A DNA stretch of 64,000 nucleotides, from assembly GCA_947650365.1 (NCBI GenBank), contig OX393550.1, forward strand, positions 114,275,532-114,339,531, written 5' to 3'. Below, piece by piece: positions 57,832 to 60,110 of the stretch (its first letter is position 1; each line of letters starts with the position of its first letter). The notes under the pieces are model-generated. The model did no database searches, was not told the DNA's origin, and saw nothing but the letters and a program-made list of their open reading frames with translations. A program made the translations under genes and the position numbers. This stretch comes from Chamaelirium japonicum (taxonomy: Eukaryota > Streptophyta > Magnoliopsida > Liliales > Melanthiaceae).

Positions 57832-57871
57832 TTATATATATAAGAGAGAGAGAGAGAGAGAGAGAGAGAGA
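57832..57871. repeat. (TA)n(GA)n tract
   Basis: Short TA then 29 bp GA. Confidence 0.9.
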
Positions 57872-58276
57872 AGAATGTTACAGTGAGCTGTGAGCTGTCG
57901 GAGGGAAAAGTGGGTTGCGCTCACTTTGACCCCCCTAAAAGTTTTAGAATTTGAAGAAATTTGGTGAGGGTGTTGCCTAGGGTAAGATGATCATCCTCAC
58001 CTATTTTTATCAAATTCCAAAACTTCTAGAGGGTTCAAATGGTCGAATCAAAATCTGCAAATTTTGAGGATGACTACGTACGACCGATTTTGCTTCAACC
58101 ATATGATACCCTAGAAGTTTTTGAATTTGATGAAAATTGGTGAGGATGATCATCTTATCCTAGACAACACTCTCACCAAATTTTATCAAATTCTAAAACT
58201 TTTAGGGGGGTTGAAGTGAGCACAGCTCACTTTCTAAACTGGTAACTCATAGCTCATAGCTCATCCTAACATCCCC
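57872..58276. mobile_element. (TA)n-embedded foldback element D
   Basis: Ends TTACAGTGAGCTGTGAGCTG and, on the right, CATAGCTCATAGCTCATCC. Arms: CCCCTAAAAGTTTTAGAATT / AATTCTAAAACTTTTAGGGGG and AAGATGATCATCCTCACC / GGTGAGGATGATCATCTT. About 405 bp. Confidence 0.85.
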
Positions 58277-58319
58277 ATATATATATATATATATATATAT
58301 ATATATATATATATATATA
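58277..58319. repeat. (TA)n microsatellite
   Basis: 43 bp between elements D and C. Confidence 0.95.
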
Positions 58320-58721
58320 GATATGGGTCAGGATCGGATGACCCAATAAATTTTGACCCAGCAAATAACCTAGCACCATTTGATGCACTTAGAGGTTTTA
58401 GAATGGGCTGATTTTTTGTAGGCATGTGGTCTATGGTATGTTGATCATCCTCACAAAAAATCAGCCCATTCTAAAACCTCTAGATGCATCAAATGCACTC
58501 TTCAAATCAACGGTTAAAATTGATAGTCGAAAACCGTTGATTTGAAGAGTGCATTTGATGCACCTAGAGGTTTTAGAATGGGTTGATTTTTTGTGAGGAT
58601 GATCAACATATCATAGACAACATGTCTACAAAAAATCAGCTCATTCTAAAACCTCTAGGTGCATCAAAGGGTGCTGAGTTGTTGCTGGGTCAAAATTTGC
58701 TGGGTCAGCGGATCCCGACCC
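58320..58721. mobile_element. (TA)n-embedded foldback element C, double palindrome
   Basis: Ends GGTCAGGATCGGATGACCCA and GGGTCAGCGGATCCCGACC. It contains four copies of an AAACCTCTAGRTGCATCAAA word, alternating in orientation, with GGCTGATTTTTTGTRRGCATG and ATGATCAACATACC-like links. The centre is AACGGTTAAAATTGATAG. About 400 bp. Confidence 0.85.
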
Positions 58722-58887
58722 TATATATATATATATATATATATATATATATATATATATATATATATATATATATATATATATATATATATATATATAT
58801 ATATATATATATATATATATATATATATATATATATATATATATATATATATATATATATATATATATATATATATATATATATATA
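58722..58887. repeat. (TA)n microsatellite, 166 bp
   Basis: Perfect TA dinucleotides. Confidence 0.97.
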
Positions 58888-59315
58888 GCTAGAGAGAAAG
58901 AGGCCCTTTCTAGTGCGATCTTGTTATGTGACCCAGTTGGTGCGATCTGAGCATTGTGGACCGTCCGATTTAATTTGTACGACTGTGATGCCTTGTTTTG
59001 GCGATGCATGCATCACAGCTAACATACGTTAGCTCGCTGTGGACCGCTGGATTTAATTTGTATAGTTGTGATGTATTGATTTGGTAGTGCATGCATCACA
59101 CTGCATGCATCACACCTTACGTATGTTTGCTCGCAAACATCCATATGTTGCACTACTTCCATTGCAGATGTTATACTAAGTAGTTGGGCGGACTGAGCGG
59201 TGCATACACGCTAACATCCGGATGTTGCTATGCTCTGCTGTATATATTGCAGTGCTCTCAGTGCATATGTTACTCATCAGGGTCGCACCAAGTGGATCGC
59301 ACTTGTGGCTAGGGA
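58888..59315. mobile_element. (TA)n-embedded foldback element F, uninterrupted copy
   Basis: Ends TTTCTAGTGCGATCTTGTTA and GGATCGCACTTGTGGCTAG; inner words GTGATGCATGCATCACAGC and AACATACGTTAGC recur in both orientations. About 428 bp. Serves as reference for the copy disrupted by the Tat element. Confidence 0.8.
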
Positions 59316-59444
59316 ATATATATATATATATATATATATATATATATATATATATATATATATATATATATATATATATATATATATATATATATATATA
59401 TATATATATATATATATATATATATATATATATATATATATATA
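59316..59444. repeat. (TA)n microsatellite, 129 bp
   Basis: Perfect TA dinucleotides. Confidence 0.97.
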
Positions 59445-59832
59445 GAGGGCTGGGTTCCTATGACATGTCATAGGGAGTACCCTATGACATATGGTGAATT
59501 AGTAATGCTAGAATGTTTAGAATGTGCTGAATTTTTTTGAGGGTGATCACCTTATCTTAGATAGAATGTCCACAAAAAATCAAAGCATTCTAAAACTTGT
59601 TGGGGCATCAAATGCTAGAAGCTTTATCGGCCATCTATTTTAACCGTTAAATTGAAAATCATATTTGATGCCTCTAGAAGTTTTAGAATGAGCCGATTTT
59701 TTGCAGGGGTCCTATCTAAGATAGGGTGATCATCCTCATAAAAATTCAGAACATTCTAAATATTCTAGGGTTACTAACTCACAATATGTCATAGGGTACT
59801 CCCTATGACATGTCATAGGAACTCATTTCCCA
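59445..59832. mobile_element. (TA)n-embedded foldback element E
   Basis: Ends TTCCTATGACATGTCATAGG and the same word inverted near 59800; arms GGTGATCACCTTATCTTAGA / TCTAAGATAGGGTGATCATC and ACATTCTAAATATTCTAG. Core GAATGAGCCGATTTTTTGC matches elements C and A. About 388 bp. Confidence 0.85.
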
Positions 59833-59908
59833 TATATATATATATATATATATATAGATATATATATATATATATATATATATATATATATATATATATA
59901 TATATATA
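59833..59908. repeat. (TA)n microsatellite with one GATA break
   Basis: 76 bp. Confidence 0.95.
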
Positions 59909-60110
59909 GGGCTGTTACAGTGAGCTGTGGGCTGCCGGGGGGGAATGTGAGCTGCGGGTATTTTGAACCCCCAAGAAGTTATGGAATTTGATGAAATTTG
60001 GTAAGGTTGTTGCCTAGGATAAGATGATCATTCTCACCAATTTTCATCAAATTCCCAAACTTCTAGGGGTGTCAAATGGTCGCAGCAATTTCTGCCGTCT
60101 GCAGTCATCG
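59909..60110. mobile_element. Half copy of element D (G)
   Basis: TTACAGTGAGCTGTGGGCTG and GATAAGATGATCATTCTCACC match the left half of element D. The right half is absent, so it is truncated near 60105. Confidence 0.7.

Follow-up and report, generated by a model that had tools for sequence, protein, structure and literature searches.

Foldback transposons chained through (TA)n arrays in Chamaelirium japonicum probably enter short TA runs that lengthen afterwards

In a 64,000-nt stretch of Chamaelirium japonicum contig OX393550.1 (114,275,532–114,339,531, forward strand; hereafter the window), different inverted-repeat elements follow one another with long (TA)n arrays at their junctions, which raises the question of whether such elements target TA arrays or whether their ends give rise to them. 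The original prediction, which had placed elements D, C, F, E and the half-copy G in a row with (TA)n of 40–170 bp between them, was borne out by junction arrays of 43, 166, 129 and 77 bp (the last interrupted once), and the similar arrangement that it had noted at 37.1–40.1 kb, together with related cases at 5.8 kb and about 30.3 kb (29.6–31.1 kb), was present as well. A (TA)n array occupies the D-C, C-F, F-E and E-G junctions but not every junction, since the F'-D spacer consists of a short (TA)n and (GA)14, with no long (TA)n. The foldbacks of the window are small (11 elements, 147–717 bp) and carry terminal inverted repeats, with 68–94% of their bases paired in single-strand folds; the arms of C are 93% complementary over 152 nt and those of E 86% over 163 nt. 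All 11 perfect (TA)n arrays of at least 40 bp in the window had a foldback terminus no more than 50 bp away, and nine had one within 10 bp, as measured against the foldback limits that we drew, while random placement put a mean of 0.66 and a maximum of 5 arrays near termini in 20,000 trials.

The cluster at 37.1–40.1 kb and the D-G cluster form a single chain, which is interrupted by a 17.4-kb LTR retrotransposon that split F', a second copy of F, and retains an intact GTAAC target duplication. It encodes gag-like, RT/RNase H, second RNase H and integrase regions plus an antisense plant-mobile-domain ORF, and its LTRs diverge by K2P 0.022. Chains of different families were also seen in L010 and L019, and an unsystematic look at the chains there and in the window revealed no foldback nested inside another. 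A recent inverted duplication of D-C-F-E-G was considered and rejected, as palindromic elements that share a core account for its 73.6% inverted match.

Table 1. Foldback elements, TA arrays and associated repeats in the window (window positions).
Feature	Position	Strand	Remarks
(TA)37 array left of K0	5769..5842	.	
K0, old foldback with shared core	5843..6165	+	limits approximate
J, foldback	29644..30222	+	right end passes into (CT)20(TA)29
(TA)29, J-K interval	30261..30318	.	
K, foldback	30319..31035	+	G+C-rich middle
(TA)31 right of K	31051..31112	.	
X, terminus of further TA-bordering repeat family	31113..31205	+	
(TA)96 then (GA)17, left of H1	37133..37324	.	
H1, foldback	37360..37506	+	
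(TA)24, H1-H2 interval	37507..37555	.	
H2, foldback	37556..37704	+	
J2, foldback	37711..38066	+	J-like ends, C/E-like core
(TA)56 left of I	39484..39595	.	
I, foldback	39596..39864	+	
(TA)60, I-F' interval	39865..39984	.	
F' left half	39985..40133	-	81% identity to F over 117 nt; terminal GTAAC duplication 40129-40133
LTR retrotransposon within F'	40134..57570	+	LTRs 40134-42078, 55626-57570
F' right half	57571..57831	-	begins with second GTAAC; 81% identity to F over 232 nt
F'-D spacer, short (TA)n + (GA)14	57832..57871	.	
D, foldback	57872..58276	+	
D-C spacer, (TA)n	58277..58324	.	
C, foldback	58325..58721	+	
C-F spacer, (TA)83	58722..58887	.	
F, foldback	58896..59315	+	
F-E spacer, (TA)64	59316..59444	.	
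E, foldback, young	59445..59831	+	other 39 scored copies 98-99% identical
E-G spacer, (TA)38	59832..59908	.	one interruption
G, half-copy	59909..60095	+	right limit approximate; 83% identical to D left half

To evaluate the habit elsewhere in the genome, we examined 20 copies each of C, E and F, chosen as those most similar to the window's elements and not at random. TA lay within 10 bp of both ends in 19 of the 20 C copies (scored by eye) and in 14 of the 20 E copies, rising to 19 for E when TA beyond a GA tract is included; for the older family F, TA of at least 8 bp within 60 bp was found on both sides in 12 copies and on one side only in eight. Most copies in these similarity-chosen sets are therefore flanked by TA on both sides and do not lie outside TA arrays. 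There were 1047 exact left ends of E (base −10 not C), and each of the 100 listed, from contig C1, adjoins a tract of dinucleotides, which by eye was TA-like in 71, GA in 28 and GT in 1; of the 1352 exact right ends (base +10 not G), the 100 listed were all TA-rich, 91 of them perfectly so. Reading of the 250–400 bp flanks found another element of our library beside 16/20 C, 14/20 E and 13/20 F copies. The claim that long (TA)n nearly always borders a foldback, which held for the window, is less sure genome-wide, because only 4 of 7 TA arrays of at least 24 bp in 18 evenly spaced 10-kb samples (contigs C1 and C2) had a detectable inverted repeat alongside, and one sample contained an M-like element with AT-rich flanks and no adjoining TA array (L023).

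Evidence on how the elements came to lie in TA was obtained from the bases that adjoin their two ends. Where TA alternates, an odd target duplication, for example of 9 bp, makes the bases immediately left and right of an element identical, and growth by slippage in 2-bp units leaves this phase unchanged. Among E copies on contig C1 with TA on both sides, the two bases were alike (A/A or T/T) in 28/28 (P = 7e-9), and in 24/24 (P = 1.2e-7) after removal of four copies whose 10-bp flank carries a substitution; this set derives from the 73 left ends on C1 that fall in the stretch covered by the right-end list, and for 29 of these no right end was found, so that they were left unscored. Scripted scoring of the fetched copies, one of which (L084) also belongs to the contig C1 set, gave 17 same, 1 different and 2 unscored for C, and 14 same, 5 different and 1 unscored for E. 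Four of the five E exceptions carry a GA tract whose first A was assigned to the tract by the script, and the fifth (L083) has a TAA gap; in copies without tracts or gaps the ratios were 15:1 for C and 13:0 for E. The rule is violated by one C copy (L034) and, it seems, by H2 of the window. The 9-bp (8–11 bp) target duplication typical of MULEs is represented by one direct case, the single C copy of 20 that lies outside TA (ATTAAAGTA, L042), and by the odd phase of the 28 E copies, which by itself is equally compatible with 7 or 11 bp. In the accessible text of the literature searched, we recognized no published phase test of TA-flanked elements; the rule offers a cheap test for any genome with such elements.

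Two further observations bear on the order of events. GA tracts at the GAGGG end of E were found only where the other side was in A phase (14/14, compared with 9/28 tract-free copies; Fisher P = 2.7e-5), and they therefore formed after insertion. Further, one clean empty paralog (C6:79677740) reads (CA)10(TA)3, whereas the occupied site on contig C27 reads (CA)19, 79 bp of TA, C and 66 bp of TA, the two flanks matching at 96.6% over 58 bp and at 100% over 55 bp; this is a single case in which the array might instead have contracted. In a third paralog (C1:80106520), the same right flank comes after 36 bp of TA and an I-element end. Other candidate empty sites were set aside: the flank of E copy L070 resembles an LTR retrotransposon 3′ end that itself abuts the array, so that its sister LTRs are not empty sites; the flank of L066 with its similar contigs (L105) was not clean; and L103 had only TA beside the flank. 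Because the end bases match, the GA tracts are bound to phase and the one empty site has only (TA)3, it is likely that the elements target short TA and that the arrays lengthen afterwards. Both halves of the original prediction, that the elements target (TA)n or that their ends seed new arrays, thus survive in part: targeting applies to short TA, with the long arrays coming later, and growth does follow insertion, as the 79 and 66 bp against (TA)3 and the phase-dependent GA tracts indicate, but starts from short TA already there.

The phase rule points to ordinary cut and paste, with short TA as the target and array growth to follow, and we consider it probable that non-autonomous, MITE-like foldback transposons move here in a MULE-like manner into short TA, whereupon arrays lengthen and chains build up. 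A trans-acting transposase, which we infer to be of MULE type, would cut a short TA-rich run (about 9 bp being enough) with a 9-bp stagger and insert the element; the duplicated TA ends beside the hairpin would then reach lengths of tens or hundreds of bp, presumably through slippage, and where the terminal GA of E meets TA in A phase a GA tract could grow as well. A lengthened array would be a larger target on which any family with a TA preference could land, and a chain would result from this presumed feedback. If this is true, the self-feeding of chains is explained, and transposon insertion is a cause of long TA microsatellites and not just a consequence.

Insertion into long pre-existing (TA)n, with only 9 bp added, predicts the phase rule equally well, and a second insertion in a chain does need an array that is big enough; in rice comparisons, likewise, 20 indica sites show a TA array that is unoccupied and varies in length. 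Against these stand the (TA)3 of the sole clean empty paralog, F copy L063, one flank of which has a 90% paralog without a TA array there (L104; weak, as a single and not clean flank), and Medicago empty sites, which in the accessible part of PMC4486113 average nine TA repeats against 15 per occupied flank, so that we regard long pre-existing targets as unlikely. Homologous recombination of circles, carrying microsatellite filler between their ends, into an existing microsatellite has been put forward for SaTar elements (PMC5907723). This model would account for the lack of nesting and for flanks unlike target duplications, the SaTar authors having reported in 2018 flanks inconsistent with cut and paste, and a 9-bp TA filler of constant length would also give the odd rule. 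Arbitrary filler, however, predicts unlike end bases in half of the copies, whereas the 28 E copies scored on contig C1 were all alike; E GA tracts are explained by growth from the junction, one C copy carries a 9-bp duplication, and we regard this route as unlikely. That element ends make TA arrays anywhere, without target preference, would suit the apparent growth of arrays beside ends and the extension of E's own terminal GA, but templating would fix the end-adjacent base, while A and T both occur with the two ends in agreement, and paralogous copies carry two different families at one and the same short TA run; this reading is very improbable, and the joint occurrence of A/A and T/T largely refutes it. 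Assembly artefacts are scarcely credible, for although TA arrays assemble badly and a palindrome on contig C38 may be a fold-back misassembly, exact E ends run to 1047 and 1352, the 40 scored E copies are spread over eleven of contigs C1–C12 and small contigs, the LTR insertion keeps its target duplication, and the phase rule is nothing that an assembler would create.

The TA-linked chain habit is already known from other plants, and what is new here is the evidence on mechanism. Tandem chains of several families, which the original prediction took to be undescribed, had been published as SaTar arrays in 2018 (PMC5907723) and as pineapple mMITE clusters in 2021 (PMC8449440); both the SaTar elements (guayule, rice, sorghum and citrus) and the mMITEs are Mutator-like. 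In the accessible part of their description, SaTar elements are small, non-autonomous, inverted-repeat elements, mostly (TA)n-flanked, in non-nested multi-family chains, with some members outside microsatellites that have 9–10 bp duplications (PMC5907723). The present elements share small foldbacks, two-sided microsatellites, non-nested multi-family chains and a minority outside TA with a duplication; they differ in that E and C flanks follow the odd (9-bp) rule whereas SaTar flanks are claimed to be often inconsistent with cut and paste, in a common core under different termini, of which that part makes no mention for SaTar, and in having neighbours beside 16/20 similarity-chosen C copies, compared with about 30% of guayule elements (PMC5907723).

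Similarly, pineapple Ac-mMITE-1 and -2 are (TA)n-flanked MITEs, a minority with 9/10-bp duplications, clustered by adjacent insertion and ending in 5′ (GA)n and 3′ (TC)n that were ascribed to slippage, with no autonomous partner found; by description, they are two families related by their ends, whereas here many are related by core (PMC8449440). MuTAnT of Medicago truncatula, according to the available text, is a foldback MULE in (TA)n with 9-nt duplications, variable terminal GGGG/CCCC and the longer TA of occupied sites given above (15 vs 9 repeats), but it is a single family with an identified transposase gene, and that text describes no multi-family chains (PMC4486113). Micron of rice and TAFT of maize, compared by description only, also have TA-repeat flanks, and short empty sites with expanded flanks were reported for TAFT (as cited in the accessible parts of PMC5907723 and PMC4486113). 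A carrot paper, in the portion available, calls the route of MITEs into TA microsatellites unclear and names the recombination-circle alternative (PMC8227079). Unlike terminal inverted repeats around a conserved internal region recur in CMITE of Acropora corals, which differs in being piggyBac-like with 13–14 bp terminal repeats, in a paper whose text does not contain the word microsatellite (PMC2872659).

The elements of the chain had been taken as distinct cassettes, which applies to their termini of about 55 bp but not to the interiors of D, C and E, as these have a core in common. At least 12 unrelated termini of about 55 bp (merged by eye) cap this core, and the core arms of C are hairpins themselves; conversely, two terminus types (I/I2 and J/J2) cap unrelated cores. 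Faster divergence of termini was rejected as the source of unrelated ends, because end differences within families are little above or below those of the core (C: ends 5.8%, core 3.9%; E: ends 1.0%, core 2.2%), too slow for ends to become wholly dissimilar with cores still about 69–79% alike. Tentatively, and with considerable doubt, the elements may be modular, with termini swapped in TA-linked chains where palindromes sit side by side; if so, TA targeting shelters the elements and yields new transposon families that different transposases can mobilize.

Two minor observations concern other sequences beside TA arrays. The palindrome of contig C38 has arms of at least about 8.4 kb around a central TA array, with 99–100% identity at four sampled pairs of places; it was set aside as proof of a TA-triggered inverted duplication, since it fits fold-back misassembly. 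The X ends were considered as termini of a 33-kb element, an idea that found no support, the sole close opposed pair among 40 scored ends (on contig C38) facing the opposite way. X ends are common, with 982 first-look candidates genome-wide, from which those 40 were scored, and besides the copy at 31113 X also occurs inverted at about 64190 (L010).

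Within the 1.52-Gb assembly (G000), in which the window corresponds to C2:114275532-114339531, we found the (TA)n-separated run of different foldback elements that had been predicted, and single-strand folds paired 68–94% of the bases across 11 cassettes. The two separate chains of the original prediction turned out to be one, interrupted by an LTR retrotransposon that sits inside F′, a second F element, because the sequences on its two sides each align (81%) to consecutive parts of element F. Five of the eight scanned ORF pieces of the retrotransposon matched domains: gag (scoring under the Pfam threshold), reverse transcriptase plus RNase H, RNase H of another type, integrase and, on the antisense strand, a plant mobile domain. 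Removing the retrotransposon leaves the order I–F′–D–C–F–E–G, and H1, H2 and J2 lie ~1.4 kb further left. The K2P divergence between the LTRs is 0.022, which dates the insertion to ~0.85 My at a substitution rate of 1.3e-8 per site per year, or to 2.2 My at 5e-9. Only F′ must predate the retrotransposon, and the remaining chain members may be younger.

Coordinates of the foldback elements and associated features in the window and at other loci (L numbers)
Feature	Position	Description
D, C, F, E and half-copy G	57,872 to ~60,095	Foldback elements, (TA)n between neighbours
LTR retrotransposon	40134-57570	17,437 bp, GTAAC on either side
LTRs of the retrotransposon	40134-42078, 55626-57570	Direct repeats, 1.95 kb
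F′, left part	39985-40133	
F′, right part	57571-57831	
C core arms	58377-58495, 58554-58668	Each itself an inverted repeat
K	30319-31035	G+C-rich middle
K2, relative of K	L010:408-1028	G+C-rich middle
Family X ends	31113 and L010:103-190 (window ~64103-64190)	Inverted, 33 kb apart, TA arrays outside
K, C, D, C, E2, I2, M	L010:191-4443, directly right of the window (beyond 64,190)	Seven-element TA-linked chain
M-like element	L023:9199-9532	GGGG/CCCC ends
Palindrome	L089 (C38:1827780-1832700) with flanks L090-L097	Arms of at least ~8.4 kb
1.15-kb element	L089:297-1459 and 3566-4720	Between TA arrays

Two further features of this region were observed. K and K2 are matched near one end only, and their middles may be captured gene sequence; the two X ends are probably separate copies.

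Each of the 11 perfect TA arrays of at least 40 bp in the window is no more than 50 bp from a foldback terminus, and nine are no more than 10 bp away, compared with a mean of 0.66 (maximum 5) near termini in 20,000 trials of random array placement. The claim that almost every long (TA)n borders a foldback element therefore holds for the window, but less surely for the genome, since only four of the seven TA arrays of at least 24 bp adjoin a detectable inverted repeat in 18 evenly spaced 10-kb samples of contigs C1 and C2. The M-like element at L023 has AT-rich flanks and no TA array; either its flanks never grew or the array was lost.

First-pass searches gave 3707 C, 641 F, 1521 E and 5161 D candidates, 40 of each being scored, and the flanks were counted in 20 copies each of C, F and E outside the window, which are the best matches and not a random draw. 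TA at both ends of genomic copies was borne out within 10 bp for C (19/20) and E (14/20). TA lay on both sides in 19 of the E copies, those with more distant TA having it past a GA tract on one side, and on a single side in one (L075). F agreed in part: 12/20 copies have TA of at least 8 bp no further than 60 bp from each end of the match, and the other eight have it on one side only. Exact matches numbered 1047 for the left E terminus, counted where base −10 is not C, and 1352 for the right one, counted where base +10 is not G; among those listed, all on C1 and inspected by eye, 100/100 left ends adjoin a dinucleotide tract and 100/100 right ends are TA-rich.

Other sequences also meet such arrays. 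At L070 and C10:35308681-35313530, an apparent LTR retrotransposon 3′ end adjoins the TA array beside an E copy, so retrotransposons too may land there. The flank of one F copy (L066) is 91% like sequence that many small unplaced contigs (C435, C399 and C448 among them) carry as inverted pairs; it resembles plastid ycf2, so this array may mark the end of a nuclear plastid insert.

If insertion into alternating TA were staggered and duplicated an odd number of bases, the identical base (A or T) would stand beside both ends, whereas an even-length duplication would leave unlike bases; slippage by whole units would not alter this agreement. As the right-end listing reaches 90.3 Mb of C1, 73 of the 100 left E ends were usable, and a right end was found at the expected distance for 44 and none matched for 29. 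TA flanks both sides of 28 of these 44 copies, with 19 T/T, 9 A/A and no mixed pairs (p = 7e-9), and when four copies with a substitution in the 10-bp flank were omitted, 24/24 had the same base (p = 1.2e-7). Of the remaining 16, GA tracts account for 14 and a GT tract for one, and the last has an unscored right base. Script scoring of the 20 best copies gave 17 same, 1 different and 2 unscored for C, and 14, 5 and 1 for E, one E copy (L084) being common to this set and the C1 set. The five unlike E copies are four GA tracts whose first A was assigned to the tract and one TAA gap, and after dropping tracts and gaps the same:different counts were 15:1 for C and 13:0 for E. By reading, C, E and I in the window follow this rule and H2 appears to break it. 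One copy of C that is not in TA, L042, carries a 9-bp target duplication, ATTAAAGTA; duplications of 9 bp are likewise reported for Medicago MuTAnT elements (PMC4486113) and of 9/10 bp for pineapple mMITEs (PMC8449440).

Among the 20 best E copies and the 100 listed places per end, GA tracts occur at the GAGGG end, whereas the GGGAAATG end shows none. All 14 paired copies with a tract have A on the far side, versus 9/28 without one (Fisher p = 2.7e-5). Only the A phase would put an A before GAG, yielding AGAG as a slippage seed. Because tract presence tracks phase, to which a pre-existing compound target would be blind, the GA tracts of E grew once the element had inserted; slippage was proposed by the pineapple authors for tracts of this kind (PMC8449440). 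The phase rule, together with the dependence of GA tracts on phase, is evidence against insertion through recombination circles carrying microsatellite filler, unless that filler had a constant odd length.

The prediction left open whether elements target (TA)n or seed it. Flank searches with 25 pieces of 90 bp yielded one clean empty site, for a C copy on contig C27 (L046) whose flanks occur together on C6 (96.6% over 58 bp and 100% over 55 bp). The occupied site reads (CA)19, 79 bp TA, C and 66 bp TA, and the C6 paralog has (CA)10(TA)3 and no element. A short TA run is thus present when the site is empty, but long arrays are present at these paralogs only where an element sits. The short C6 run may be a contracted array. 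On a C1 paralog, 36 bp of TA and the end of an I element precede the right flank; since C27 and C1 share this flank, the C and I families used one TA run. Data on Medicago MuTAnT (15 repeats versus 9; PMC4486113) and on empty sites in maize, as quoted by the SaTar authors (PMC5907723), point in the same direction.

Nine elements (C, D, E, E2, I2, M, N, K0 and J2) share a common core. Core scores exceed every shuffled score in 34 of 36 pairs (exceptions D–J2 and D–K0), and none of those core-sharing pairs does so in the terminal 45 bp; I/I2 and J/J2 have common ends and unrelated cores. Core similarity starts at a median of 53–75 bp from the end in 15/17 arms (42 and 111 in the K0 arms), with 69–79% identity in 16/17 alignments. 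At the examined loci and in the window, 134 of 303 flanks of TA arrays carry the core 30–90 bp in, 98 of them from the deliberately sampled C and E clusters, and 37 additional flanks were too short to score. The termini form 19 clusters, or at least 12 once second ends of known elements were merged by eye. Within C and E, ends are not evolving much faster than cores, and hence replacement of termini is a likelier source of the unrelated ends than divergence. Exchange of termini between chain neighbours would, speculatively, account for this modular structure. Coral CMITEs likewise keep a conserved interior beneath differing termini (PMC2872659), but belong to another superfamily.

Contrary to the original prediction, which knew of no tandem multi-family chains, the literature describes SaTar elements, non-autonomous MULEs of several families that form non-nested chains linked by microsatellites (PMC5907723), and clusters of such elements in pineapple (PMC8449440), so the chain in the window is a further case of a known phenomenon. 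The closest single family is MuTAnT of Medicago (PMC4486113), and the target duplication and the likeness to published elements suggest that these elements are MULEs. The targeting mechanism is called unclear in the carrot paper (PMC8227079).

Chains recur elsewhere. In that at L010, a long (GT)n tract separates C from E2, and one of the 18 evenly spaced samples (L019) contains a further chain, whose members include I and C. By reading, other library elements lie within the 250–400 bp flanks of 16/20 C, 14/20 E and 13/20 F copies, and on both sides of 11/20 C copies. The palindrome on contig C38, with arms 99–100% identical where sampled, has at its centre a (TA)59 array flanked by two fused E elements; it is possibly a fold-back misassembly of this unplaced contig, possibly real. 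The 1.15-kb element within it has ends like CAGGGGCGGACC, typical of hAT-Tip100 elements.
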